NCBI GenBank assembly: GCA_903837595.1 | Contig: CAILVI010000330.1 | Coordinates: 1 to 34,381, forward strand | DNA from: an uncultured Thiodictyon sp. | GTDB lineage: Bacteria; Pseudomonadota; Gammaproteobacteria; Chromatiales; Chromatiaceae | Length of the DNA stretch: 34,381 nt | Direction of reading: 5' to 3' | Shown: one piece after another, positions 2,167-23,324 of the stretch | Numbering within the stretch: position 1 is the stretch's first letter | Layout: the number at the start of each line of letters is the position of its first letter | The notes under the pieces: model-generated | Database searches by the model: none | The model's input: only the letters and a program-made list of their open reading frames with translations | Told to the model about the DNA's origin: nothing | Translations under genes and position numbers: made by a program

Positions 2167-2214
2167 TTGGAGCCGATGGGCGGATTCGAACCGCCGACCT
2201 ACTGATTACGAATC
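2167..2214. repeat. Left att copy (48-bp direct repeat)
   Basis: Identical over 48 bases to 16071-16118. It carries the 3' half of the tRNA-Thr gene including CCA, then diverges after GAATC. No 5' half of a tRNA follows, so this copy is a non-functional junction remnant. Confidence 0.9.
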
Positions 2215-3370: not shown

Positions 3371-3921
3371 TTCGGCTGTCATCTGAAGTCCTGTTGATCG
3401 ATACAGCGAATCATAATCCGCCTGAGATACGCAAGCTGGAGTGCCTAGTGTCTTGAGGTTTAAGACGGTGTGCGGCCTGGGAGGTCGCCCCGTCGCGCGA
3501 TGCGCCCGTTTTACCCGGCCTCAAGAAATGCCCGGACGGGGCGGGCTAGGTAGCTGGGAGCGATACGGTTCAGGTGGTGGCGGCAGGCTCCAGAGCGTCA
3601 CCCATCGCCGTGAACAAGTGCCACGCTGGCATTCTGGCGCAGTCCACAACCCCGCCGATGGCGGCGTGCGTCCCCCCATGCGGGGCGGTCTGCCGCGTCC
3701 ATTGCACCGATCATGTAGCCGCGTCCGCGCTCACTGTGCGCTTCGTCGGACCGGCGATCCACAGTCGGCCGAGTGTTGCCGGCCGGGACCAGAGCCGGAC
3801 ATTTGGCTTGGCCCTTGGGCTTCGGTACGATGCCCATCGGCGGGCAGGCATCGACCATCCAAGGCATGCAAGGCCCCGAGGGGTTTCCCTCCCCACTCGT
3901 CAGGCAGTCAACGGACAGCAC
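3371..3921. other. 550-bp gap without a convincing gene
   Basis: Several frames are open because of high GC, but none has a good start or a recognisable product. A minus-strand frame (3598-3867, 89 aa, containing GQAKCPALVPAGNTRPTVD) could be a small gene or remnant, but it has no clear ribosome-binding site. The stretch must hold the promoter of the two-gene PLD-J / Trp-repeat unit. No clear -35/-10 pair stands out. Confidence 0.4.
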
Positions 3922-5334
3922 ATGGAAACGACCGCCCATTTCGAGAACATCCCCCAAGAGATCGCCAGGCGGTTGAGCGCGGCGACGCAAGAAATCGTCG
4001 TTGCGGTCGCCTGGTTCACCGATCGCGACCTCTTCGACGTGCTGTGCCGACAGGCCGGGCGGGGCCTGCGGGTGCGCCTCGCGGTCCTCGGCGACCGGAT
4101 CAACGTCGGGCCGGGACGGCTCAACTTCCAGCGCTTGCAGGACTGCGGCGGTGAAGTCTTCCTGATCGCCACGGGCGGCGACCGCGACCCGATCATGCAC
4201 CACAAGTTCTGTGTCATCGACCGCGCGACCGTCATCATCGGGTCCTACAACTGGACCAAGCGGGCACAGGACAACGACGAAAGCATCACCGTCATTGCCG
4301 CCGGTGACGACGTTGATAGCGGGATCGCCGCCGACTACCTGACCGCCTTCGATGCGCTCCTGTGCAAGCATGGCCACGGCACACCGGCCATCGACCAGGC
4401 CCAGATTCGCCGCCGTCTGGAGATCGTCCGCAACCTCCTGTTGTTCGACGAGTGGGACACCCTCGCCCCACAACTCGACAAACTCCGCCCCGCGGGCGCC
4501 GCGGCCCGTCTCGAACCGCTCTTTACCGCCCTGCAAGGCCGCGACACCGCCACGGCACTGACCTGGATCGACGAGTACCTGAAGCACGCCACGGCCCTGA
4601 CCATCGCCACGGACCAGGAAATCACCGACCTGCGCCTGACCCTGCGCGGCCTGGAGTATCAGGTCACCGCCCTGTCCGACGACAAGGCCGAGATCGAGCG
4701 GCTGATTCATGCCTTCTCCCTGCGCACCAGTCACGAGATCGGGGACCTGATTACCCGTTATTTGGAGCTACGCGCGGACAAGCTCCGCCGCCAGGCCACG
4801 ACCGAGAGGGATGCCGAAGCACAAGCCGACAGCGCCCGCGCCGACTACGAGGAATACCGCGACGCCAACGAGGCCGCCCGCGAAACCCCGGCGGCCCCGC
4901 AACTCCCGCCCGATGACCTGCGGGAACTCAAACGCCTCTATCAACAGGCCAGCCAGAAGTGCCACCCGGACAAGGTGGGCGAGGCCGACCGCAACCACGC
5001 CAACCGGCTCTTCGTTCAACTCCAGGCCGCCTACCGCAACAACGATCTGGGGGGCGTGCGCGCCATCCATGCCGCGGTACGCGAGGGGCACCTGTTCGTC
5101 GACCGCTCCCTGACCCTGACCGAAGCCGAGTCACTGGGCCACGCCATCACGGTACTGCGCCGCGACCTGGATCAGCTCGCTACCCAGGTCCATCAACTGC
5201 GCCGCGCGGACACCTACCGCACGCTCAAGGACCTGACCGACTGGGACGCCTATTTCGCCGAACAGCGGGTTGCGCTGGAACGGGCGATTGAACAACTGGA
5301 AGCGGAGCTTGCCCAGCATGAACAAGGCGCCTGA
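3922..5334 (+). CDS. PLD-fold nuclease fused to a helical region and a J-domain-like module
   Basis: 470 residues from ATG 3922 (residues METTAHFENIPQEI, the usual N-terminus of single-HKD phospholipase-D-like proteins); the ribosome-binding site is weak. Residues about 1-150 are the PLD domain with H93-x-K95-x4-D100 and GSYNWTKRA. One HKD motif per chain implies a dimeric nuclease of the Nuc type. A long helical/coiled-coil section follows (about 150-330). Residues about 335-390 resemble a J domain with H348-P349-D350-K (KCHPDKVGEADRNHANRLFVQLQAAY). A C-terminal coiled coil ends the protein. The J-like segment could recruit a DnaK partner or act as a protein-binding module. It overlaps the next gene by 17 bp, so the two are probably made together. 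Role in defence or in competition between mobile elements is inference from nuclease, partner and location. Confidence 0.75.
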   Translation: METTAHFENIPQEIARRLSAATQEIVVAVAWFTDRDLFDVLCRQAGRGLRVRLAVLGDRINVGPGRLNFQRLQDCGGEVFLIATGGDRDPIMHHKFCVIDRATVIIGSYNWTKRAQDNDESITVIAAGDDVDSGIAADYLTAFDALLCKHGHGTPAIDQAQIRRRLEIVRNLLLFDEWDTLAPQLDKLRPAGAAARLEPLFTALQGRDTATALTWIDEYLKHATALTIATDQEITDLRLTLRGLEYQVTALSDDKAEIERLIHAFSLRTSHEIGDLITRYLELRADKLRRQATTERDAEAQADSARADYEEYRDANEAARETPAAPQLPPDDLRELKRLYQQASQKCHPDKVGEADRNHANRLFVQLQAAYRNNDLGGVRAIHAAVREGHLFVDRSLTLTEAESLGHAITVLRRDLDQLATQVHQLRRADTYRTLKDLTDWDAYFAEQRVALERAIEQLEAELAQHEQGA

Positions 5335-7456
5335 GTCCAATCCCAGCGCACTGGTTGCCCGTAGCCCCAAGACGCTGGCCATTGCCAACCGGCAATTGCA
5401 CATTGCCGGGCAGGCGCTCGCGCGGATTGAGAAAGAGCGATATATCGAGTTCTTTGCGACACATCCACAGGCGCGGGAAATATTCATAAACGCGGTTTCT
5501 AACTATTACCCGCTAAGCGAGGGGCTGATCGAAAAGTACCGGGATAGGTGGGATTGGGCGCGCCTTAGTGTCAACAAGAGGATCGCTTGGACCAGCACAT
5601 TGATAGAACGGTATGTCGATCAATGGAATTGGGGGGCGCACGGCCTTAGCTTGAACGATGGCGTACCGTGGACCGAAACACTGATCGAACGCCACTTTTA
5701 TCGGTGGCACTGGGGTTTTTTTGGCCTCAGCATGGGCGATCATCTACCGTGGACCGCCACACTGATCGAGCGGTATACGGATCGGTGGGATTGGAAGGTC
5801 TTGAGCAATAATGACTCACTGCCGTGGACCGATGGGCTAATCGCGCGATATGCAGGCCGGTGGGATTTCGAAATGCTCAGCGCCAATAAAGGGTTGCCTT
5901 GGACACGGTCGCTTATTGATCGTTATGCTGATCGCTGGGGTTGGAAGTCTTTCCTCAGCAGTAACGAGTCACTTCCTTGGTCCGAAGCGTTAATTGAGCA
6001 TTACAAAGCTCGGTGGGGCTGGCCTGCGCTCAGTCGGAATAAGGCACTGCCATGGTCTCTGGAACTCATCAAGCGATATTCGGATCGCTGGGATTGGCGT
6101 GGACTGAGCTGGAATGAAGGGTTGCCGTGGACCCTTGAACTGATCGAGCAGTGTGCGCTACGTTGGGATTGGAAGGCGCTCGCTGCGAATGCCGGGCTTC
6201 CGTGGTCCGCGCACCTGATCGCACGACATGCAGACCGCTGGGACCACAATCGTCTAAGCAGCAACGCTGGGCTTCCTTGGTCCGAACGCCTCATTGAGCA
6301 GTATGCGGACCGCTGGAATTGGTCGGTACTGAGCGGAAACCCTGGGCTGCCGTGGAGCGAGGCCCTGATCGAGTACTACGCGGATCGGTGGGATTGGAGC
6401 GCTTTAAGATTCCCTGAGTACTTGGGAATGGTTCTGCGCCAGTGGACGGAGGACGAAATTTGCGCAGTGATGGACAAGCAAGCTCGGGACACTGTGGCGG
6501 TACCGGCGCGATTGACGGAAGAGGATGCATCCAGGTCGGTTTCGATGGCTGAGTCTGAATCTCAGAAAGTGGTCAGGAGCAACAGTCAAGGATCATCAAG
6601 TCACTGGCAAGAGTTCTATCGGGCTGGTGTGGTCGCTGCGGTCCGTCACCTTGAGGCAGGCGCGCGTGCCTATCCCGATTTCACCCGCGCCATGGTGCAA
6701 GAACTTGGAGATGGGTCGCGGCCGTACCTGCGTAGTTGGTACGAAGGCTTGCGCTGCTACCCAGGATTCGATCCTATGGGGATGACGCCGGCAGCAGAGA
6801 TCGACGTGGCGTCCGAGGCGTCGGTTGATCTCCCAAGGGCCAACCGTCAACACGCGCAAACCGCGCTTGACCCGAACACCATGCTGGCAGGCATGACGCT
6901 GTCTGTCTCTTACATCGAAACCGGAACGCAACGGTTCGTTGATTTTGCAAAGCGCGTCTCCGAAGACTTGGCGAAACCGCTGACCGAACTCCGGCCCTAC
7001 CTGCGGGCCTGGTACAACAGCGCACGGGATATGCTCGACGAGGCCGGACAGGATGTGTCTGACATGGACGACCCGACCACTGTGCTTAGAGAATTTGAAC
7101 GGCTTTGCTCTGAATTAGCGCAAGGCGAGGCGACCGCTGCCGGCGCGGTTCCGGTTCACCCTGAGCGGATGACACAGCGCGATGTACTGAACCCCTTCAT
7201 GGATAAGCTTGAAGACCTGTTGCGACAAGAGGACGACCCGCCAGCAACGATGCGATGGCTGGAGACTTACCTCTATGACGAAGGTCTGGTAGGAGGAATG
7301 CGAACCGACAACCCAATGGCCTTTGCGATCGACTTAATGGAGAACCTGTTAGAAAAAGACCCCGACAGCTACATCGTTCCGCCTAAAGACCCACGAGCGT
7401 TCGAGAACGCCGAGGAGCTGATTCTAGCCATGCTTAAAGGGACTTGGGACCACTAA
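5318..7456 (+). CDS. Trp-rich tandem-repeat protein (twelve ~26-aa repeats)
   Basis: 712 residues from ATG 5318, which has GGAG 11 bases upstream and lies inside the end of the PLD-J gene. Residues about 61-367 are twelve near-perfect repeats of 25-27 aa with the pattern LPW(S/T)xxLIERYxDRWDWxxLSxN. The regular Trp/Leu spacing suggests a stacked solenoid for binding a protein or nucleic acid. The C-terminal half carries two diverged copies of another block: residues about 428-486 (GVVAAVRHLEAGARAYPDF, PYLRSWYEGLR) and about 521-580 (MTLSVSYIETGTQRFVDFA, PYLRAWYNSAR), then an acidic helical tail. There is no signal peptide or membrane segment. I do not know a named family for the 26-aa repeat. 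As the partner of a nuclease/J protein, a sensor or substrate-recognition role is plausible but inferred. Confidence 0.8.
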   Translation: MNKAPESNPSALVARSPKTLAIANRQLHIAGQALARIEKERYIEFFATHPQAREIFINAVSNYYPLSEGLIEKYRDRWDWARLSVNKRIAWTSTLIERYVDQWNWGAHGLSLNDGVPWTETLIERHFYRWHWGFFGLSMGDHLPWTATLIERYTDRWDWKVLSNNDSLPWTDGLIARYAGRWDFEMLSANKGLPWTRSLIDRYADRWGWKSFLSSNESLPWSEALIEHYKARWGWPALSRNKALPWSLELIKRYSDRWDWRGLSWNEGLPWTLELIEQCALRWDWKALAANAGLPWSAHLIARHADRWDHNRLSSNAGLPWSERLIEQYADRWNWSVLSGNPGLPWSEALIEYYADRWDWSALRFPEYLGMVLRQWTEDEICAVMDKQARDTVAVPARLTEEDASRSVSMAESESQKVVRSNSQGSSSHWQEFYRAGVVAAVRHLEAGARAYPDFTRAMVQELGDGSRPYLRSWYEGLRCYPGFDPMGMTPAAEIDVASEASVDLPRANRQHAQTALDPNTMLAGMTLSVSYIETGTQRFVDFAKRVSEDLAKPLTELRPYLRAWYNSARDMLDEAGQDVSDMDDPTTVLREFERLCSELAQGEATAAGAVPVHPERMTQRDVLNPFMDKLEDLLRQEDDPPATMRWLETYLYDEGLVGGMRTDNPMAFAIDLMENLLEKDPDSYIVPPKDPRAFENAEELILAMLKGTWDH

Positions 7457-8547: not shown

Positions 8548-8762
8548 TCGCTGATCCGATTCATTCCGGCACGCTTGCGAGCGGCCAGAATCGAGTCAGC
8601 GAGCGACGGCAAGCCCGGGTTAGCTGCAACGCGGTCGATAACTGACTTCATGCCCAGGTCGCCGCGGTACAGCCGGGACAGCCGATCATATTCGGCGGAA
8701 AGTTCTGCATCGGTCATTTTGGCGCCCTCAAGTGCCTCGATGCGTGGTCTAAGTGGCTTCAT
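8544..8762 (-). CDS. RIxxLE small-gene array, member 1 (72 aa)
   Basis: 72 residues from ATG 8762, overlapping the stop of the DUF5681-type gene by 4 bp. N-terminus MKPLRPRIEALEGAK, then MTDAELSAEYDRLSRLYRG and a mixed helical tail (ADSILAARKRAG). The preceding gene ends with a C-terminal ESRIAALESRR, the same seed, so the array may have grown by duplication of that tail. No known family. Confidence 0.6.
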   Translation of the reverse strand: MKPLRPRIEALEGAKMTDAELSAEYDRLSRLYRGDLGMKSVIDRVAANPGLPSLADSILAARKRAGMNRISE

Positions 8763-9163
8763 CGCCTCGACTCCAGGGCCGCGATGCGGCTTTCCAGTTC
8801 GGTGAACTCCCGGACCTTGACCAGTGCGGACAATGCCCCGGCGATGGTCGCGGCCTGATCGGGTGACAGGGCGCCGGCGGCCAGGGCCTTCAGAACGGCC
8901 ACAGGGGCGCCGGTCAGGTCGGACACCTCAATGCCCGGGGGCAGGTTCGCGGGCGCATCGGTGGGCCGCAGGGCGGGCAGGCACCGATCAAGCACCAGTC
9001 TTGCCGCGGTCGGGTCTCCGCTCTTGGCCTGCTCAACCAGGGCGGCAAGGATGTCGGGTGCGTCGCGCAGCAGGTCGGCGCGCAGCTTGGCGGGGCCTTC
9101 GGGCTTCGGCTTGCGGGGCCGCCCCTTGGGGTTGCCGGTTTCTCCCGGCTGGAATTGTGCCAT
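8759..9163 (-). CDS. DUF5681-type small protein (terminase-small-subunit-like neighbour)
   Basis: 134 residues from ATG 9163, chosen because AGAGGA lies about 9 bases upstream and the product then begins MAQFQPGETGNPKGRPRK, the hallmark FxPGxSGNPxGRP opening of DUF5681 proteins, commonly coded in phages and islands. The frame is open further upstream to an ATG at 9307 that overlaps the previous stop (ATGA), so a 182-aa form is possible. The middle is helical (AKLRADLLRDAPDILAALVEQA). The last residues ELESRIAALESRR carry the coiled-coil seed of the downstream array. Family role is not established; some members lie near terminase or replication genes. Confidence 0.7.
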   Translation of the reverse strand: MAQFQPGETGNPKGRPRKPKPEGPAKLRADLLRDAPDILAALVEQAKSGDPTAARLVLDRCLPALRPTDAPANLPPGIEVSDLTGAPVAVLKALAAGALSPDQAATIAGALSALVKVREFTELESRIAALESRR

Positions 9164-9303
9164 GGGGGTTTTCCTCTGTTTCGGGCCTGCAAGAAACAGG
9201 CGTATCAGGGCGCCGGCCACGGGGGCGGGTCGGCTCTTTCGGTCGAATCGCTGCCAGATGCCCCGGCTGATGGTGGCGCACAGCATGGCGCGGGAGTCGT
9301 TGA

Positions 9304-9750
9304 TCATGCGGCGCCCTCGGGTGCAATGGACTCCGACACCGGGCGCCAAAACACCACGTCCGCCAGGCACGCGGGCGTGTCGAACGCCAGTCGCTCGGTC
9401 GAGCCGTCGGCGTAGGTCACCAACCAGGACCGGAAGCGCGGCGCCGATGGGTCAGGCTCAGTTGCGCGCAACAGCCCGGCCCAGCACTCAAGGACGGCGG
9501 GTCGGTTCTGGATATCCGGCCAGTCAGGACCGGCGGCGGCTTCCAGATAGGACAGACTGAACCCGTGCCAGTCGGGGGCGGTGTCGGAAATTTCGCCCTG
9601 ACTATCGATTTTTCCGGGGGAACCCAGAGAACCGGGGGAACTGCATTGATTCACAAAAGGTTCCCCGGTTCCCTCACCAGGGAACCGCGAGGGAACCGGG
9701 GGAACCGCAGAGAGAACCGCCAGCCGCGCAAGCAGTGCGTCAACGCTCAT
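9304..9750 (-). CDS. Hypothetical protein with embedded GGTTCCC repeat (148 aa)
   Basis: 148 residues from ATG 9750, preceded by AGGAGG and overlapping the primase stop by 4 bp, so the start is well supported. Residues about 11-49 (VPPVPSRFPGEGTGEP...SSPGSLGSPGKID) are Pro/Gly/Ser-rich and are encoded by the repeat at 9604-9718. The remainder is folded-looking: W-H-G-F-S-L-S-Y-L-E-A-A, RPAVLECWAGLLRA, SWLVTYADGSTERLAF, CLADVVFWRP. No family recognised. It always travels with the primase here by translational coupling; a role in replication is inference. Confidence 0.65.
   Translation of the reverse strand: MSVDALLARLAVLSAVPPVPSRFPGEGTGEPFVNQCSSPGSLGSPGKIDSQGEISDTAPDWHGFSLSYLEAAAGPDWPDIQNRPAVLECWAGLLRATEPDPSAPRFRSWLVTYADGSTERLAFDTPACLADVVFWRPVSESIAPEGAA
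9604..9718 (-). repeat. GGTTCCC repeat, copy B (inverted relative to copy A)
   Basis: Read on the minus strand this ~115-bp segment aligns with plus-strand 11458-11570: clusters of GGTTCCC(C/T), a hairpin, GAATCAATGCAGTTCCC, and a final GGTTCCCCCGGAAA. The hairpin at 9667-9686 has a perfect 8-bp stem GGTTCCCT/AGGGAACC with a 4-base loop. It lies wholly inside the 148-aa gene. Confidence 0.8.
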
Positions 9751-12581
9751 GCCGCATCCTCCTGGGGCGCGATGGCGTAAAGGCCCTGGGATCGCCCCTG
9801 TACCTTCACCTTCTTGGACCGCTTGCCATCGTCGCGTTCCACAATCCACTTGGAACCGTCCAGGGCCTCCAGCACGCGCCGGAAGTCGAACCCGGGTGCC
9901 GCCTCTCGCAGTCCACCCGGGGTGAACAGGTAGACCCGCCCGGCCGTCGTGTCCTTCCACCAGCCGGCGCGGTCCCGGGTGACTGGTTGCCGGGTGTCTC
10001 CCTCGGACGCCAGCGACGAAAAGCGGGCATCCCCGTGGGCCGCAATGAAGTCCGCGACCGATTGCAGGACTTGGCGGGTCTCGGTGTGCCCCTTGGGGCG
10101 GTTGGTCTTCCAGGCGGCGAACGCGCCGACCGCGGCGGCCAGGGCGTCACCTTCGGACCAAGGGACGATGCCCCACTCAATCGCCAGCTCGCCGGCCAAG
10201 GCCACCAGGGCGAACGCACCGGATGCCCGGCCCTCAAGTTCGTTGTCGGCCGCAAACTGGGGTAGCGCGGAGGTCTTGGCGTACAGGTCGCCCCAATCCT
10301 TGGCATCGGCGATGATCCGGGCGACGAAGGCGGGGCCGGCGTGCCCGTAGTGGACCGCCGCAGCGGTGCGCAAGGCGTCAGAGAGGGCGCGTCCGTCTGC
10401 CAGGTCATGCAGCGTGTCGAACACCCCCAAGCGCCGGGCACAGGGCACGTCCAACAGGCGGGCTTCCTGGCCAGCCTTGGCGGCCTTCCCGCCCTCTGCC
10501 ATGGTCGCGGTCAGGGTCCGCTCGCCACTCGACAGCAGGACCACGCGCCAGCGTTGCACGGCTCTGGCCCCGCCCGTGCGGGCGCCCCGGCTCTTGCCGG
10601 TGCCGTTGCCGATGCTGTAGACGATGCTCCCAATCTCGCGCGGGTCCGCCTCGCTGATCTCGTCCAGCACCAGGGCGGTATCAGTCAGGGCGGCGGCCAC
10701 GCCTTCCAGGCCGTTGCCGGTGGCCTTCCAGGTGCGGATGAACCCGGCCCCGCCCCAACAGGAGGCGCCGGCAGTCAGCAGGGTGCTCTTGCCGGTGGAA
10801 CTGTCGCCGACGAAGTGGAACCCGCAACCGACCCGGTGGACCTTCGCCAGCAAGGGGCCAGCCAGGGCCGCAGCCACGCTGAACACCAGCATGGGGTTAT
10901 CGACGCAGCGGGCCGCGATGGCCTCCCGCCAGCCGTCAGCGGTGCCGCCCATGCTGAACGCGTCGTGCTGGGCGTGCTCGGACTGGTAGCGGACCTCTCC
11001 CGAACCAATGATGCGATCCGGGAGGACAAAAATGCTCCCGTCGCCATGCCAGCCGGTGGACGTGGCGGCCAGGACTCGCCGCTTAGGGTGGCGACTCATC
11101 AGGCACTGATTCAGTAGCCGGTGACTGACGGGGTCGATCCTGACACCCAGGTCCAAGAGTTCGCCGCGCAGTTCTTCGCCGCTGCCCTTCAGCAACCGCA
11201 TGGGCATGGACCATTCCCGCCAGCGTCCGCAAGCGTTCTGGAATCGCAGCAGCAACCCATAGTCGGCGTCGTGCTCACCGTGGGCGATGGCGTCGGCATA
11301 GAGTGGCGAGCATATCCACTGGTCTACGTCTTCCACCTCGTCGCCTTTCCCTTTGTAGCCGTGCCAGTACAGACCTGGGGGGCCGAACCCGGTCCAGTCC
11401 TCATGCACATCAAACCCGGGCCGGTCGACGGGGGGCTTGGTTCGCGCAGTTTCCTTGGCGGTTCCCTGGCCCGGTTCCCCCGGGTTCCCTCGCGGTTCCC
11501 CCGTTGGGGAACCTAAAACCGCCTCTCGAATCAATGCAGTTCCCTGGGTTCCCCCGGTTCCCTCGGAAATAACGAAAGGATTGGCGATTTTCGCCCACTT
11601 CGCGACGGCTAGGCGGTCAGCGGTCCACCCGTCCGACAGCGCATCGGCCGCGTCCCAACCCGGCGGTAGTTCGTCGGCCAGGCTCGACAAGTCCAAGACC
11701 TCGACCGATGCCGCGCCGGCAGCATAGGTCAGCGCCGACACCGTGCGCGCATACTGCGCCCCGGGCTCGTCGTGGTCGGGCCAGATGCGGACGTGCCGGC
11801 CAGCCAGGGGAGACAGGTCCGACTTTGCCGGGCTCTGCGCTCCGTTCATGGTCGTGGTGGCCACCAAGTCAGGCACCAGCACGGCTACGGCATCGGCGGC
11901 CTTCTCGCCCTCTGCGATCAAGACCGGGGCACCAGGCCGGGCCGCCAGCAGGTTCAGATGGTAGAGCGGGCGGGGCACGGCGGGCGCCTTCCAGGTCCAG
12001 CGGGTGCCGTCCCAGGTCTGGGGCCGGAACTCCTTGCGCCCGTCCGGGTGGTCGAACCGCAGGACATAGGCCACGGGTTGCCCGTCGCTGTCGCGGTACT
12101 CCCAGGTGGCGGACGGCTCACCGAGCTTGCCGGCCGTGGTTGGGCGCATCGCCAGCGCCTCAGCCGGTATCGGCGCCAGTACCGTTGGGGTGGGCTCAGG
12201 GGCCGGTGCCGTTGGCTCGGTGGCCTTAGGGTTGGACTTGGCGGGGGACGGCTCGCATTGGACGCCATAACGCTCGGACAGGGCCGCGCGGGCTTGGTCC
12301 AGGTCCAGACGGTCATAGGCCATGGCGAAATCAATCACGCTCCCGCCCTTGGCCCCGCATCCAAAGCAGTGATAAGCGCCGGTCTTGGCGCTCACGGCGA
12401 AAGACCCGTCATGGTCGGTATGCAGGGGACAGGGGAAAAGCTGCGACCATCCCTTGTCGTTAACCTTCAGGGCGGGGGCGTGCTCGATCTCGCGGACGTA
12501 GAACGCAAACGGGTCGATGGCGGCCTTGAGGGCTCGCGGGGTGGGTGGCGGCCCCGGGGGGCGCTCGGTCGTGTTGGTCAT
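9747..12581 (-). CDS. Primase-helicase: CHC2 zinc finger, Toprim-like and DUF927-type ATPase
   Basis: 944 residues from ATG 12581 (GAGGAA about 9 bases upstream; the longer frame to 12662 adds a low-quality extension). Residues 51-75 form a CHC2 zinc finger (C51, H54, C72, C75), as in DnaG-type primases. Residues about 230-330 look like a Toprim domain (VLIAEGEKAADAVAVLVPDL, VRIWPDHDEPG). The C-terminal half is a DUF927-type helicase/ATPase with Walker A GDSSTGKST near residue 595 and Walker B TALVLDEIS. Together they would prime and unwind DNA for autonomous replication of the excised element. Residues about 338-374 are a Gly/Pro/Thr-rich linker encoded by the GGTTCCC repeat at 11458-11570. 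The stop overlaps the start of the 148-aa gene. Confidence 0.85.
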   Translation of the reverse strand: MTNTTERPPGPPPTPRALKAAIDPFAFYVREIEHAPALKVNDKGWSQLFPCPLHTDHDGSFAVSAKTGAYHCFGCGAKGGSVIDFAMAYDRLDLDQARAALSERYGVQCEPSPAKSNPKATEPTAPAPEPTPTVLAPIPAEALAMRPTTAGKLGEPSATWEYRDSDGQPVAYVLRFDHPDGRKEFRPQTWDGTRWTWKAPAVPRPLYHLNLLAARPGAPVLIAEGEKAADAVAVLVPDLVATTTMNGAQSPAKSDLSPLAGRHVRIWPDHDEPGAQYARTVSALTYAAGAASVEVLDLSSLADELPPGWDAADALSDGWTADRLAVAKWAKIANPFVISEGTGGTQGTALIREAVLGSPTGEPRGNPGEPGQGTAKETARTKPPVDRPGFDVHEDWTGFGPPGLYWHGYKGKGDEVEDVDQWICSPLYADAIAHGEHDADYGLLLRFQNACGRWREWSMPMRLLKGSGEELRGELLDLGVRIDPVSHRLLNQCLMSRHPKRRVLAATSTGWHGDGSIFVLPDRIIGSGEVRYQSEHAQHDAFSMGGTADGWREAIAARCVDNPMLVFSVAAALAGPLLAKVHRVGCGFHFVGDSSTGKSTLLTAGASCWGGAGFIRTWKATGNGLEGVAAALTDTALVLDEISEADPREIGSIVYSIGNGTGKSRGARTGGARAVQRWRVVLLSSGERTLTATMAEGGKAAKAGQEARLLDVPCARRLGVFDTLHDLADGRALSDALRTAAAVHYGHAGPAFVARIIADAKDWGDLYAKTSALPQFAADNELEGRASGAFALVALAGELAIEWGIVPWSEGDALAAAVGAFAAWKTNRPKGHTETRQVLQSVADFIAAHGDARFSSLASEGDTRQPVTRDRAGWWKDTTAGRVYLFTPGGLREAAPGFDFRRVLEALDGSKWIVERDDGKRSKKVKVQGRSQGLYAIAPQEDAA
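11458..11570 (+). repeat. GGTTCCC repeat, copy A
   Basis: Six or more GGTTCCC-type heptamers, a perfect hairpin at 11494-11513 (8-bp stem GGTTCCCC/GGGGAACC, loop CGTT), GAATCAATGCAGTTCCC and the end GGTTCCCTCGGAAA. It lies inside the primase gene in the opposite orientation to copy B, without breaking the frame. Compared with copy B, the last stem pair is C-G instead of T-A. Confidence 0.8.
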
Positions 12582-12698
12582 GTGATCGGTTCCTCTGGCG
12601 TAGGGAACCGACCGGAAAGGCAGGCAGGGGCAGGCGCAGTTTTCCCGCGGGTGCGGTAACATATGCTTGCCGGTGCACGGACTCTTACCAGTCGGTGC
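12582..12698. other. Short gap upstream of the primase
   Basis: Separates the small basic-protein gene from the primase. GAGGAACC near 12594 is the primase ribosome-binding site. No clear promoter was identified. Confidence 0.4.
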
Positions 12699-12878
12699 TT
12701 AGTCGCGGGGGGTCTCGACAACCCTCCGCGGACGGCCTACAGAATACGCTTGTTGATCGCCCCGCTCCAAGCCCGACCGGATGCCCCCCGGCCGGGTTTT
12801 CTCGTTTCTGGGGGCTGGCCAGCGGTTGCGGGCCTTGGCGCGGCGGGACTGGCGACGGTCGCTGCTCCGGGTGGTCAT
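12699..12878 (-). CDS. Small basic protein (59 aa)
   Basis: 59 residues from ATG 12878, with GGAGG at ideal spacing and the start overlapping the stop of the AlpA-like gene by 4 bp (ATGA). The product is strongly basic (MTTRSSDRRQSRRAKARNRW, then EKTRPGGIRSGLERGDQQ), about a quarter Arg/Lys. Such a protein would be expected to bind nucleic acid. No family recognised. Its position between a putative excisionase and the primase suggests a regulatory or replication-accessory role, by inference. Confidence 0.55.
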   Translation of the reverse strand: MTTRSSDRRQSRRAKARNRWPAPRNEKTRPGGIRSGLERGDQQAYSVGRPRRVVETPRD

Positions 12879-13204
12879 GCCGATGCCTCCAGGATCGCCA
12901 CGGGCGCCGGCAGGGACCGACGGCGGGGCGCGACCTTCTGTCCGGGCTTGGGCTTCGGGGGGCTCAACTGCGGACTGGTCCGCATCCACGCCAGGAACAT
13001 CTCCGGGTCGATCAGTACGCGCCGACCGACACGCACGACGGCACCGGACTCGGCCAGGCCGTTGTTGTCCTCGTTGAAGATCGCCCAACGGGTGCCGCCC
13101 TCGGTCAGGGCGGGTTGTTGTTGGGCCAGTTGCTTGACCGTCAGAAAGACACGAGACGGGGGCGGAAGGGTGACAGGGGCGGATGTAGTTACATCGGGTT
13201 GCAT
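12875..13204 (-). CDS. AlpA/excisionase-like DNA-binding protein
   Basis: 109 residues from ATG 13204 with GAGGAA about 7 bases upstream. The core, VFLTVKQLAQQQPALTEGGTRWAIFN then NNGLAESGAVVRVGRRVLIDPEMFLAWMR, fits the winged-helix layout of AlpA/Xis-type proteins: a helix-turn-helix followed by the wing strand VGRRVLID and a helix ending in W. The tail is basic and Pro-rich. In similar islands such proteins drive excision and regulate integrase. Tandem 9-bp repeats 100 bp upstream (13304-13330) could be its operator. Confidence 0.65.
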   Translation of the reverse strand: MQPDVTTSAPVTLPPPSRVFLTVKQLAQQQPALTEGGTRWAIFNEDNNGLAESGAVVRVGRRVLIDPEMFLAWMRTSPQLSPPKPKPGQKVAPRRRSLPAPVAILEASA

Positions 13205-13232
13205 CGGAGTTCCTCGCCAAGGTTAGAACACG

Positions 13233-13252
13233 CAAGCCCTTGGTTGGGCTTG
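13233..13252. promoter_or_regulatory. Hairpin in the leader of the AlpA-like gene
   Basis: CAAGCCC/GGGCTTG (13233-13239 with 13246-13252), a 6-base loop, followed on the plus strand by ATTGTTTT. On the plus strand this resembles a terminator; on the minus strand it lies in the untranslated leader and could affect expression. Confidence 0.4.
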
Positions 13253-13303
13253 ATTGTTTTCAACTGTAGCGAGGGGTAAAGGCGGAAGCATCCCGCCGCG
13301 GGT

Positions 13304-13330
13304 TAGACGGGATAGACGGGATGCGCGGGA
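13304..13330. repeat. Three tandem 9-bp repeats (TAGACGGGA type)
   Basis: TAGACGGGA at 13304-13312 and 13313-13321, followed by TGCGCGGGA. Located in the gap between the integrase-coupled gene and the AlpA-like gene; a possible operator or iteron cluster. Confidence 0.45.
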
Positions 13331-13334
13331 CGGA

Positions 13335-14516
13335 TCAGCGGCCTATTTCGGGGTCGCTCTGCGCTGGTCTTGGTTGCGGGCGCTCGTAGTTCCTCAGGGC
13401 AGTCCCGATGTGGTCTTGCAGGGCAGTCGGTTTCAGGCTCGTAAGCCCTTGTTCAAGGAGGTAGCCCGCTACTCCGGTTCCCTTTACTCCCCCGCCCGCA
13501 AAAGCCTTGCCGTCCGCCATGAGCGGAACCCTGGGGCTGTGCTGCGCCTCAGCCAGTGCTTGCGCCAGTGCGCCAATGACCCGGTACAAGGTGTCCTCGG
13601 TCCTGGTCGCGCGGCGCTTGCTGGGGGTAGTGATTGGTGACTCATCGTCCGAGAGGAATGCCCCAAATGCCGGATCGAGTTGATCGCTCGGCCTCTCGGC
13701 TTGGAATCCTTCCATAACCGCTTTGTGCAGTTCGTTCGGTATCATTGGGACTGCGCTCCATCCGCGGTCGCCTGGACGCTCATCCATTATGGTCCAAACG
13801 TCGCCACCGAAAAAGGCGCCGTCGAATTCATCACGCCAAAGAAAGACACCAGAGGGCAAGCACAGAATCGAGTCGCGCCGCCAGAAGGCATAGCTTTCTT
13901 CCCGTGACATACCAGCCGCGTCGAGTCTCGCAGACAGGGCCTTAAGGTTTTTTACAACCATGTCCCATTCTTTGGGCTGCATTTCAACCAGGTCGCCGTT
14001 GTCGCTCAGGTGATACGCGCGTAAACGCTTGGCCAACTTCCGGGCTTCTTTGCGTTGCGCCAACTCGGCAGCAACCGCGTCAGGAGATAACGTCCAGGCG
14101 GTCACGAACGGCAGGGCTCGCGCCGGGATTGCTTCCCGGCCCGTGACGGTCACGACAACGCTCTTATGGCTGGCCTCAAGTGAAGGCATCGCGCCCCCAA
14201 GCTGTGGCAAGCCCCGCACTACTCCGATTGCGCCGGCTGACTCCGCCCGATCCTCGGGAAAGAGAAAGGGCATTGCCGACCGTTGCCCGGTGCTCTCTGC
14301 CCAGTCGCGTAAGTCGGAGCGCTGGAAATAGACGCTTTTCCCGACATCGCGGCATGGGACTTCCCGCTTTAGGCGCGCGGCTATTACTTCCAGTTTGCGG
14401 TAGTCGGCATCCTTGAAGTCTATTCCTTGGGGAGGGTTGCGGTCACAGCAAAGAAACGCGGCATCATGGGTGACATATTCGGGTTGTTGATCCCAAAAGG
14501 CATAGTCCGGTTTCAC
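13335..14516 (-). CDS. Integrase-coupled hypothetical protein (393 aa)
   Basis: 393 residues. The GTG start (14514-14516) overlaps the integrase stop in a GTGA, so translation is coupled. The N-terminal part resembles a winged/HTH adaptor: AFLCCDRNPPQG, DYRKLEVIAARLKREVPCRDV, then SVYFQRSDLRDWAES, as in proteins that choose between helix and wing contacts. The middle and C-terminal parts are helical and charged (ELAQRKEARKLAKRLRAYHL, WRRDSILCLPSG). The final 100 residues carry TEDTLYRVIGALAQALAEAQ. I know of no functional assignment. Position right after the integrase suggests a role in excision or element control. Confidence 0.6.
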   Translation of the reverse strand: MKPDYAFWDQQPEYVTHDAAFLCCDRNPPQGIDFKDADYRKLEVIAARLKREVPCRDVGKSVYFQRSDLRDWAESTGQRSAMPFLFPEDRAESAGAIGVVRGLPQLGGAMPSLEASHKSVVVTVTGREAIPARALPFVTAWTLSPDAVAAELAQRKEARKLAKRLRAYHLSDNGDLVEMQPKEWDMVVKNLKALSARLDAAGMSREESYAFWRRDSILCLPSGVFLWRDEFDGAFFGGDVWTIMDERPGDRGWSAVPMIPNELHKAVMEGFQAERPSDQLDPAFGAFLSDDESPITTPSKRRATRTEDTLYRVIGALAQALAEAQHSPRVPLMADGKAFAGGGVKGTGVAGYLLEQGLTSLKPTALQDHIGTALRNYERPQPRPAQSDPEIGR

Positions 14517-15619
14517 TTTGCGCCCTCCCCAAAGTACCGCTGATTCATCCGCTCGACTACGCTTGCCGTGTGCGCCTCGCTCAAATGGGCATACCGCTTA
14601 ACCATGCTCAAGGTCTTGTGTCCCAAGACTTCGGCAATCTCGGCAAGGCTCGCGCCGTTCATGGCCAGGTAGCTTGCCGCGGTGTGCCGCAAGTCGTGCC
14701 AGTGGAAATCCTCAATCTCTGCGCGCTTCAGGGCCGTCTCGAACGGGGTCCGCAGGTCTACGGGCTTCGGGGGTCGGGTGCGCCCTGGGAAGATCAGGTC
14801 AGTATCCAGGCACCGGACCTTGGCGCGCTCCCGTAGCAACTCCAGGGCGGGACCGGCCAGGGGCAGAACCCGAATCTCGCCGTTCTTGGTCTCGTGCAGG
14901 GTGGCAACCCGGCGGACAAGGTCTACCTGGGGCCAGCGCAAGCACATGATTTCTTGCTGGCGGGCGCCGGTGGACAGGGCGAGAATAACGGCGGGGTACA
15001 AGTCGCGGTTGCTCGACTCCCGGCAGGCGGTCAGGAAGCGTTCGCGCTCTTCGTCGGACAGGAACCGCACCCGGCCGCGGGGCTCTTTGGGCTTCGTTAC
15101 CTTCAAGAGCGGGTTGAACTCGATCCACCCCCATTCCTTCACGGCCACGGTGAAGGCGTGCGACAGGGCCGCAAGGTAGCGGTTAACGGTGGCTGGCGAG
15201 CGATACCGCTCGGGTCCGGCGTGGGTCGGGTCCTTGGCCTTGGTCTGGACGGGCTCACGGCTCAGGGTGTCGCGATACTCCGCGAGTAGGGCCGGGGTCA
15301 CGTCGGCCAGGGTCCGGGCGCCAATCTGGTCTTTCCACCAGGTCAGTTGTTGGACCTGCGGACCTTGGGTCTTGTCCTTCTTCTTGGGCAACTCGTCGCG
15401 GGTGTAGCGGTCTACCAGGTCGGCCAGGGTGTGCCGCTTGGCCTCGACCGTGCCGAAGTGCCGCCCCTCCCGGATCGCGCTTTCCGTGGTCTGTGCCCAC
15501 TTCTTGGCGTCGGTCTTGCGGGTGAAAGTGGCGCGTTGCGCAGGGTAGCCTTTCAGCCGGACCTCGACACGGTAGGACGTGGCGCCAGTGCTGTCGGTGC
15601 GTTCGGTGATGGTGGCCAT
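14513..15619 (-). CDS. Tyrosine recombinase (integrase)
   Basis: 368 residues from ATG 15619. Catalyses site-specific insertion and excision at tRNA-Thr. N-terminal arm-binding part (residues about 1-65, TITERTDSTGATSYRVEVR with KTDAKKWAQ), SAM-like core-binding domain (about 66-170), and catalytic domain (about 185-350) with the full set R220 (STGARQQE), K245, H308-x-x-R311 (HDLRHTAASY), H334 (GHKT) and Y343 (VKRYAHL). Length and motifs match island/phage integrases that use tRNA genes. It reads away from the tRNA, about 450 bp inside the att site, with paired GTGCGCC repeats between. Its stop overlaps the next gene, so expression is coupled. Confidence 0.95.
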   Translation of the reverse strand: MATITERTDSTGATSYRVEVRLKGYPAQRATFTRKTDAKKWAQTTESAIREGRHFGTVEAKRHTLADLVDRYTRDELPKKKDKTQGPQVQQLTWWKDQIGARTLADVTPALLAEYRDTLSREPVQTKAKDPTHAGPERYRSPATVNRYLAALSHAFTVAVKEWGWIEFNPLLKVTKPKEPRGRVRFLSDEERERFLTACRESSNRDLYPAVILALSTGARQQEIMCLRWPQVDLVRRVATLHETKNGEIRVLPLAGPALELLRERAKVRCLDTDLIFPGRTRPPKPVDLRTPFETALKRAEIEDFHWHDLRHTAASYLAMNGASLAEIAEVLGHKTLSMVKRYAHLSEAHTASVVERMNQRYFGEGAK

Positions 15620-16070: not shown

Positions 16071-16147
<77 letters not shown>

Positions 16148-21560: not shown

Positions 21561-23324
21561 ATGAAAGAAGCAGAACAAAAACAATTAGCACATGACTCAC
21601 CACAAGTTTGTTTATTTGACCTTGAAAAATCCATTTTAGATGCGCTTACAGGAGCGTCGTACAACTGCAATAGCGGCTCATTAGGAAGGCTAGTTCGCGT
21701 TCCAAACAACAAAAGAAACGAACATCATTTTTTGCAACTAAATCATTCGATCCCCGTCAATCTTCATGAGCATGATATAATCGTTTTAAACATGGATTTC
21801 CATGAGAAATCTGATTACAAAGAAAATGAAGTTTCACTCGACAACGTTACCGGCCACTCCATCCATGCATTACTTAGCATATTCCCTGAAAAAATATTTA
21901 ACCCCAGGCCTTACTCTACGCTGGCAGTTTCCAATGAAATTAACAAGATACTAAATAGAGAGTCCATCGTAATAATATTTGCAAGCAGCCAAGAAAGAGT
22001 TATTTACAAAGAAGTAGAGATTACTTCATACGAAAACAAAATCACTAATGAGCGAGAATTGACTAGCACTTGCTTTTATGATGGCTTCCCATATTGCCAC
22101 AACAAAACTGGCCGAAAAGTCAAGTCGCCAGATAAAGCGACAGCAATAACACCTTTACTACTAAAGCACTCGAGCGACACCTCATATGGCTTGGTGTTTG
22201 ATCACCCCACACATTGGGAGGACCATAAACAGGTGAAAGACAATGATTTTATCCCATTACTCATAAATAATGATGGAGAGATTATTTCCTTCTATCACGC
22301 CTACAAAAAGGGAGCCGTTTTTGTCTTTCCATGTATAAATGACAAAAGGTCTTTTTTATTGGAGCTATTTAATAGCTATCTATCAGAAATATTTCCTAAT
22401 TTATTTCCTTATCATAGCCAGTTCGGATGGCTGGATAACGGAGATTACTTGCTTCCAGGCGAATTTAAGTTAATTGAAGAAAAAAGAATAATTGAAAAAC
22501 GCTACTCAAGCGAAATGGAGAAAAATCGCAAGGCCATAGAAAAAATCAAAGACGACTTTAGCTTCCTTCATGATCTGATATCAGAGTCAGGCCATCAACT
22601 CGTTTCTTCTGTTGAGCATTATCTTAAATGGCTAGACTTCCCGAGTGTAATAAATTTCGATGAGACCAATCCAGACATCTTAGAGGAGGATCTCCAAGTC
22701 GACTGTGGAGATAAGCTTTTAGTTGTGGAAATTAAAGGTATCGGCGGAACGTCAACAGATAAGGATTGCTCGCAAATAAGCAAGATTAGATATCGCCGTG
22801 CTGAGCAAAGAAACAAGTTTGATGTATCTGGCTTATATATCGTAAACCATCAACGATATATGCCACCTAAAAAAAGAAATACCCCCCCGTTCACTGAAAA
22901 CCAAATAAAGGACGCACGCTTGGATAAACGCGGATTGCTAACTACTTACGATTTATATAGAGCTTACTTTATGGTAGAAAGTGGAATTTTATCAAAAGAT
23001 GAAGTCCGTGACAGGCTATTTGACTATGGCCTCGTAGAGTTAGAACCAAAAGACCTTATTAGGCTAGGAACTCCCCAAGAGTATTTTATGTCAGGCACTG
23101 TAGCGATACTTAACCTCCGTAATATTAATTTGAAAAACGGCATGGATTTGTTCGTAAAGAAAAATAGCGAATATGAAAAAGTTAAAATTTTATCTATAAG
23201 AATCAACGAGGAAGAAGTAGATCAGGTGACAAATGGAGAAATCGGAATAAAGCTCGACAGGGCAGCAAGAAAGAACTCAGAATTCTTTACAAAGAGGGAG
23301 AAAACTGGCCAGATTCAATTATGA
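21561..23324 (+). CDS. PD-(D/E)XK nuclease-like protein with EF-Tu-type C-terminal barrel
   Basis: 587 residues from ATG 21561 (AAGGA 8 bases upstream). Strikingly AT-rich codons compared with both flanks, which points to recent transfer. Residues about 1-350 match nothing I know. Residues about 335-430 look like a restriction-endonuclease fold: PSVINFDETNPDILEEDLQVD then the DKLLVVEIKGIGG strand, giving D381/D384...E390-x-K392, and a helix-rich tail (QISKIRYRRAEQRNKF). Residues about 512-575 (GTVAILNLRNINLKNGMDL, VKILSIRINEEEVDQVTNG, EIGIKLD) resemble the EF-Tu domain 2 barrel. Sequence reads like a defence or restriction protein; this is inference. No methylase or helicase lies beside it. 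Confidence 0.6.
   Translation: MKEAEQKQLAHDSPQVCLFDLEKSILDALTGASYNCNSGSLGRLVRVPNNKRNEHHFLQLNHSIPVNLHEHDIIVLNMDFHEKSDYKENEVSLDNVTGHSIHALLSIFPEKIFNPRPYSTLAVSNEINKILNRESIVIIFASSQERVIYKEVEITSYENKITNERELTSTCFYDGFPYCHNKTGRKVKSPDKATAITPLLLKHSSDTSYGLVFDHPTHWEDHKQVKDNDFIPLLINNDGEIISFYHAYKKGAVFVFPCINDKRSFLLELFNSYLSEIFPNLFPYHSQFGWLDNGDYLLPGEFKLIEEKRIIEKRYSSEMEKNRKAIEKIKDDFSFLHDLISESGHQLVSSVEHYLKWLDFPSVINFDETNPDILEEDLQVDCGDKLLVVEIKGIGGTSTDKDCSQISKIRYRRAEQRNKFDVSGLYIVNHQRYMPPKKRNTPPFTENQIKDARLDKRGLLTTYDLYRAYFMVESGILSKDEVRDRLFDYGLVELEPKDLIRLGTPQEYFMSGTVAILNLRNINLKNGMDLFVKKNSEYEKVKILSIRINEEEVDQVTNGEIGIKLDRAARKNSEFFTKREKTGQIQL

Follow-up and report, generated by a model that had tools for sequence, protein, structure and literature searches.

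Two inverted iteron modules in and beside the primase-helicase gene of a Thiodictyon integrative element: a putative bipartite origin

Introduction

Helicases with a DUF927 domain are found in many phages, plasmids and islands. According to one report, the C-terminal domain of Rep from the staphylococcal pathogenicity islands (SaPIs) recognises an iteron origin directly downstream of its own gene, where Rep is apparently present as two hexamers; Cch of the staphylococcal cassette chromosome mec (SCCmec), which contains DUF927, is related to the Rep of SaPIbov1 (PMC7581432). The print record, as far as its open part goes, is sparse on where DUF927 helicases start replication: in the open literature, with subscription journals mostly uncovered, we met the SaPI origin and a putative SCCmec origin alone. 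Here we consider the DUF927 gene of an integrative element of about 13.9 kb in a contig of an uncultured Thiodictyon sp. (CAILVI010000330.1, assembly GCA_903837595.1); the whole stretch analysed, 34,381 nucleotides in length, is called the window. The gene encodes a primase-helicase and contains an array of the 7-mer GGTTCCC, which we call P, while a second array of the same word in the opposite orientation, D, follows just past its end. In our judgment, with a probability of roughly three in four, this element has a bipartite iteron origin with P and D as its halves, and the element's own MCM-like initiator helicase is their likely ligand.

Several features of the locus recall described systems. 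SaPI Rep and SCCmec Cch are initiator helicases of the DUF927/MCM-like kind, and the helicase of the present element matches them in fold. As in SaPIs, array D (9618-9706) lies directly downstream of the helicase gene, which ends at 9747; in the SaPI-like element PT1028, the word AGTTCCC occurs right after the rep stop codon in three direct, one inverted and two direct copies. A SaPI-type origin has two sets of repeats close together around an AT-rich stretch. The present locus departs from that arrangement, with 1766 bp between its halves, and it also differs from SaPI in the fusion of helicase and primase, in the location of one module within the gene and in the coding nature of both modules.

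P4 has two clusters of one repeat around its primase-helicase gene alpha, the second of them just past the gene, as here. Its record annotates ori as six type 1 repeats (three, one inverted, two) and places the same repeats, under the name crr or 'cis required region', just past the 3' end of alpha. Both clusters are required in cis in P4. However, other genes separate the P4 ori from alpha, ori being located about 2 kb upstream, and no cluster is annotated in the alpha linker. The lambda origin, in turn, lies inside the O initiator gene, with its iterons in linker-coding DNA. P is likewise linker-coding and in frame, between the CHC2-containing N-terminal part of the product and DUF927, although lambda O belongs to another initiator family and its single cluster lacks an inverted counterpart beyond the gene. 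A primase-helicase gene between two clusters of one word has a precedent in P4; what appears to be new in the literature searched is a fixed module under many words, a half-origin in an interdomain linker, and the coding nature of both halves. Searches on GGTTCCC repeats gave only unrelated work among the matches listed, and searches on P4 ori/crr and on origins in primase genes gave nothing on the point.

Arrays P and D in the window

The plus strand of 11431-11600 aligns to the reverse complement of 9581-9745 with 119 identities in 160 aligned positions and 15 gap positions, and the same inverted pairs were recovered by a separate repeat search of the window. GGTTCCC occurs 17 times in the window against 6.8 expected, a count reached by none of 100 shuffles, and 13 of the 17 copies belong to P and D. 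The repeat pair, whose coordinates and opposite orientation had been given in a preliminary description of this DNA, is confirmed as real and far beyond chance.

Each array has a core of six sites, which we scored without regard to the word itself, as six 7-mers at the module spacing with a maximum score of 42. The core of P, on the plus strand at 11473..11562, scores 39 and has its sites at 11473, 11483, 11507 (inverted), 11538 (one change), 11547 and 11556, the first two being 10 apart rather than 9. The core of D, on the minus strand at 9618..9706, scores 40 with sites at 9700, 9691, 9667 (inverted), 9636 and 9627 (one change each) and 9618. The only other matches in the whole window score 35, overlapping D, and 33, at 10116-10206. 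Outside the core pattern there are extra sites: on the plus strand beside P at 11439 (one change), 11460 and 11494 (within 11439..11500), and beside D at 9659 (+), 9680 (-) and 9712 (-, one change), within 9659..9718.

P lies antisense within the primase gene, at about residues 367-397 of the product, and D reads along the direction of that gene at the start of the next frame, at about residues 15-45 of its product. The preliminary description had taken both to encode linkers; both arrays are indeed in open frames and P is in an interdomain linker, but D encodes the N-terminal part of the next product.

The module in related elements

In relatives of the same family (loci are given as L numbers where needed), the arrays reduce to six 7-base sites per module of about 89 bp, which start at 0 and 9 (direct), 32/33 (inverted) and 63/64, 72/73 and 81/82 (direct). 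In 20 related elements the module is present twice, inverted, at a constant spacing while the 7-mer word varies, and changes of the word are usually common to P and D. Apart from GGTTCCC, the words are GGTTCGC (L250), GGTTACG (L188), TGTAACG (L159, L213), TGTTACG (L214), TGATACC (L215), GGTCCCA (L195), GGTAGCG (L194) and others besides. The preliminary description had left it to be seen whether relatives carry such repeats, and on checking, modules are present in related elements.

The sharing of the word between the halves can be put in numbers. The 20 elements with P and D have 12 distinct P words, and the exact copies of the P word in the elements' own D zones total 70, whereas a foreign D zone holds 0.09 on average; none of 20,000 permutations reached 70. 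At least three exact copies of the own P word are found in 16 of the 20 D zones, with L161 (1 copy) and L302 (2 copies) among the four that fall below. Elements that reside in the same genome carry different words in all eight pairs whose words were read, from six genomes, and the window's own genome has a second such element (L215, contig C536) with the word TGATACC.

With signs taken along the helicase gene, P is '-' and D is '+' in 20 of 20 elements. The separation of the halves is 1729-2055 bp with a median of 1770 bp, except for 4193 bp in L167, where the gene is interrupted. In L158, L204 and L207, which lack P, the D position holds two adjacent modules of opposite orientation that follow the order of P and D in the window; such pairs sit just downstream of the helicase gene, which is the SaPI origin position. 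The gaps within 29 such D pairs are 0-101 bp (median 14), with an AT fraction of 0.00-0.88. Since the P-less pairs are adjacent and the halves of the window's type are 1729-2055 bp apart, it is helicase-domain coding sequence that comes between the halves in the latter.

How widely the module occurs was surveyed in two rounds. At a threshold of 36, P together with D was found in 15 of 98 distinct DUF927 loci. Another 27 had modules only at D, which in 12 of them formed an inverted pair; the shuffled control gave no module in 460 kb. No relative turned up when viral contigs were searched with only the helicase part of the window, while an alignment query kept 80 of 94 viral-contig loci, of which 64 were distinct and were added to the survey for a total of 162. 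At a threshold of 34, no module is found in 80 of these; P(-) and D(+) occur together in 20, D holds an inverted pair in 29, and 33 are others. Shuffled zones gave 1 match in 474 kb. Among the others, L263 (a GC-rich chance match) and L303 (its contig begins inside the gene) were set aside. Twenty-six of the pairs at D run '-' then '+' and three '+' then '-'; their independent number is lower than 29, because the tree shows many of them to come from near-identical viral contigs, and the two module words differ within L282 and within L191. The same tree, a quick one of 92 of the 142 usable rows in which rows labelled 'none' were thinned to every fourth, puts all 19 P(-)D(+) rows within one supported clade of 36 rows, and the label requires 9 changes. 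One 7-mer is enriched in 66 of 93 testable D zones, which points to other arrays in many of the module-less loci.

Both halves are coding in nearly all of the 20 elements. For P, the helicase gene is open across the module in 19 of them (the exception is L194), and a reading frame starting with ATG or GTG runs through D in all 20, at -4 with an ATGA overlap in 11 of them; these D frames are the longest frames taken, not gene predictions. In L164, for example, the peptide from P is EGTEGTKGT, and those from D are VPPVPS and GSLGSPGSP. As P and D are read in different directions and frames and yield unlike peptides, the geometry they share is a matter of DNA, and codon-driven low complexity is held unlikely on the same ground.

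Some individual relatives deserve mention. One genome (G028) has both L165 (C1:556984-559839), with GGTTCCC, and L250 (C1:3618061-3620919), with GGTTCGC, which are 94% identical over 431 helicase residues and 78% over 115 C-terminal residues; they make a natural pair for the study of specificity, although a single pair proves nothing. The P module of L176 is further upstream (-942), by interpolation just past CHC2 and in another linker, and a decayed P module at the usual place in this element is too degenerate to claim. The primase-helicase gene is interrupted in L166 (G076), about 3.5 kb after the P module, and in L167 (G132), with two gaps of about 1.2 kb. Across words, spacer letters such as CCATTGCTGG or CAATCAAGGC recur in the 24 bp that separate the inverted site from the three direct sites after it.

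The element and its helicase

An exact 48-bp direct repeat of the 3' end of tRNA-Thr brackets the integrase and primase genes, which makes this an integrative element of about 13.9 kb. The left copy is at 2167..2214 and the right at 16071..16118, in the 3' part of the tRNA-Thr gene (16072-16147, -). The integrase (14513..15619, -) is of the phage type (PF00589, E 4e-32; phrog_1, E 4.5e-75). The primase-helicase gene (9747..12662, -) encodes 971 residues, identified by Pfam, PHROGs, a PDB sequence match and AlphaFold2 with Foldseek, with a CHC2 zinc finger at residues 70-137, DUF927 at 429-703 and a C-terminal winged-helix-like region. Its middle part is inferred to be TOPRIM-like, because in relatives a 'toprim' gene of its own precedes DUF927. 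The next frame (9304..9750, -; 148 residues), whose 5' part is D, begins with a start codon that overlaps the primase stop (ATGA); a longer version of it, 9304-9960, has no Pfam or PHROG match.

By sequence the helicase matches PDB entries 8tch (E 1.3e-18) and 5dgk (E 1.2e-11). An AlphaFold2 model from 43 sequences has a mean pLDDT of 92.4, and Foldseek matches it to SCCmec Cch (5dgk, TM 0.63/0.66) and SaPIbov1 Rep (8tch, TM 0.58-0.59/0.64) at E 3e-21 to 2e-19, and then to MCM helicases. In the model the C-terminal region has the helix-strand order of a winged helix; an earlier, low-confidence model had given a weak match of this region to TcpK (E 0.13).

Discussion

The arrangement would be explained if each module places one helicase assembly, so that the inverted pair would give two opposed assemblies on the excised circle. 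By analogy with SaPI Rep and SCCmec Cch, the ligand would be the element's own primase-DUF927 protein, acting via its C-terminal region. In elements of the window's type, linker-coding sequence upstream of the helicase domain would hold the '-' half of such an origin, at a distance of about 1.77 kb, and the halves may cooperate through looping or with each of them loaded separately. What the data show directly is the geometry of the sites, the inverted placement of the modules, the word they share, the fold of the helicase and the ends of the element; that the helicase binds, that the modules act as an origin and that the halves cooperate is what we infer here. The preliminary description had offered a replication origin, or an iteron array for the primase, among its readings. 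The origin is now the best-supported one, on the basis of the fixed geometry, the shared change of word, the adjacent SaPI-Rep-like helicase and the module pair downstream of the gene in relatives; a covariation test for the C-terminal domain of the primase-helicase, the presumed ligand, was negative.

A broader proposal, on which we are nearly evenly balanced with a slight lean to doubt, is that integrative elements of one class have an origin divided by the coding sequence of their own helicase. Two inverted, coding half-origins 1.7-2 kb apart would act together over that distance with a rigid geometry, while a 7-bp 'address' would change in step in the two halves and be distinct in each of the elements that share a cell. 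If the origin reading is right, the module would serve as a search rule for the origins of DUF927 helicases, the family would offer paired binding sites in which the word varies naturally, and one stretch of DNA would double as half an origin and a protein-coding linker.

A number of results weigh against the bipartite-origin reading. Neither the PT1028 array nor P4 ori and crr have this six-site spacing (no module scores 33 or more), and 80 of the 162 DUF927 loci have no such module at threshold 34. Halves that are 1.77 kb apart are unable to flank one melted bubble, unlike in the SaPI model. The D word called by the scanner differs from the P word in L270, L272 and L302. The scanner was also triggered on natural DNA by 9-bp coding repeats: a 1.31-Mb control, made up of loci that had been retrieved with the bare GGTTCCC pattern, gave 57 matches, mostly runs of such repeats on few contigs, with 3 of the 57 belonging to the DUF927 element family. 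The expected covariation, in which the C-terminal domain reads the word, found no support in a partial Mantel test that used 24 elements (25 were aligned; L161, with an ambiguous word, was excluded), where word distance against C-terminal distance given helicase distance has r 0.06 and p 0.26. The ratio of C-terminal to helicase divergence is also alike in close pairs with the same word (1.51, 21 pairs) and with different words (1.54, 15 pairs). Word distance does follow helicase distance given C-terminal distance (r 0.27, p 0.001), and the choice of ligand therefore rests on homology, not on covariation. In sliding windows of 40 columns the top stretches (0.32-0.38, given without a significance test) are near domain residues 504-518, in the wing, and 197.

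The alternative that survives best, although unlikely, is that D alone is the origin, and that the same protein uses P as a control site, acting on copy number through P-D pairing or in self-repression from within the gene. D does occupy the SaPI origin position, more loci have modules at D than at P, and P lies inside the initiator gene; P4 too has two clusters of one repeat. What argues against a separate role for P is that P and D are the same module under the same orientation rule in 20 of 20 elements, and that the P-less relatives (29 loci) carry an inverted second module at D, as expected of a two-part origin.

Quite improbable, in our view, is that the modules are sites for another protein of the element, for partition, excision or transcription control, and are near the primase by coincidence. 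The negative global covariation test with the helicase C-terminal domain leaves room for this. Against it, the modules associate with DUF927 genes across many genomes and viral contigs, and arrays of this kind downstream of the gene are what SaPI Rep binds (PMC7581432).

A structured RNA or single-strand hairpin was suggested by two perfect 8-bp stems with 4-base loops, one closed by C-G and the other by T-A, which the preliminary description had read as a compensatory change. Both stems are present, with one pair changed on both sides: in P (11494..11513, +) the extra site 11494 pairs with the inverted core site 11507, and in D (9667..9686, -) the extra site 9680 pairs with the inverted core site 9667; most relatives lack the extra site. 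However, perfect stems of at least 7 bp with loops of 3-8 occur in just 9 of 40 modules, so that the C-G/T-A change cannot be taken as a sign of structural conservation. By itself the inverted core site yields long-loop pairings only, and Rfam has no match up to E 1 in the region 9000-13500. We hold this reading to be very improbable.

A frame-tolerant mobile repeat, REP or MITE-like, is hardly credible despite two copies in one element and the high spacer identity of P and D in some elements, since the 7.8-Mb draft genome of the host has no further array at E <= 10 beyond weak matches of 16-28 bases, and in relatives the word is another one although the arrays keep their place and direction. 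The spacer identities of P and D in L195 (0.88), L304 (0.87) and the window (0.67) do indicate that copying between the halves may occur, and the shared part of the window's spacers suggests such copying in this lineage. The mean identity is just 0.58 within P-D pairs, compared with 0.51 for P-D between elements, 0.60 for P-P and 0.53 for D-D, so that only some elements look recently copied and gene conversion would account for the shared word in part.

Other observations

The bare GGTTCCC pattern, two copies within 6 bases, matches in 44 of 146 family genomes, and alone says little because a reversed control also matched in many genomes. Among the loci fetched around pattern matches, clusters of at least three GGTTCCC are found in the DUF927 elements and in L031, L170, L171, L172 and L180. 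The last (G119:C12, 5807-5925) has 15 copies in a row at 8-bp spacing in a genome with no DUF927 match reported. Long runs of 9-bp coding repeats of the CAAGG type, possibly from collagen-like proteins, trigger the scanner in the viral contigs L064, L120, L044, L137 and L143.

Within the element, a DUF5681 protein (8759-9370) is encoded beside the D gene. Two cargo genes are possibly defence-related, namely a PLD-like protein with weak similarity to DrmC (3574-5334) and a 728-residue frame with PHROG matches to a DarB-like antirestriction family (5270-7456). A tRNA-Val call by ARAGORN inside the primase gene (9870-9955) is probably false. Outside the element there are a LytB-family gene and, at 21561-23324, a 587-residue frame without a Pfam match in a low-G+C stretch, the G+C fraction being 0.38 at 22-23 kb against 0.6-0.7 around it.

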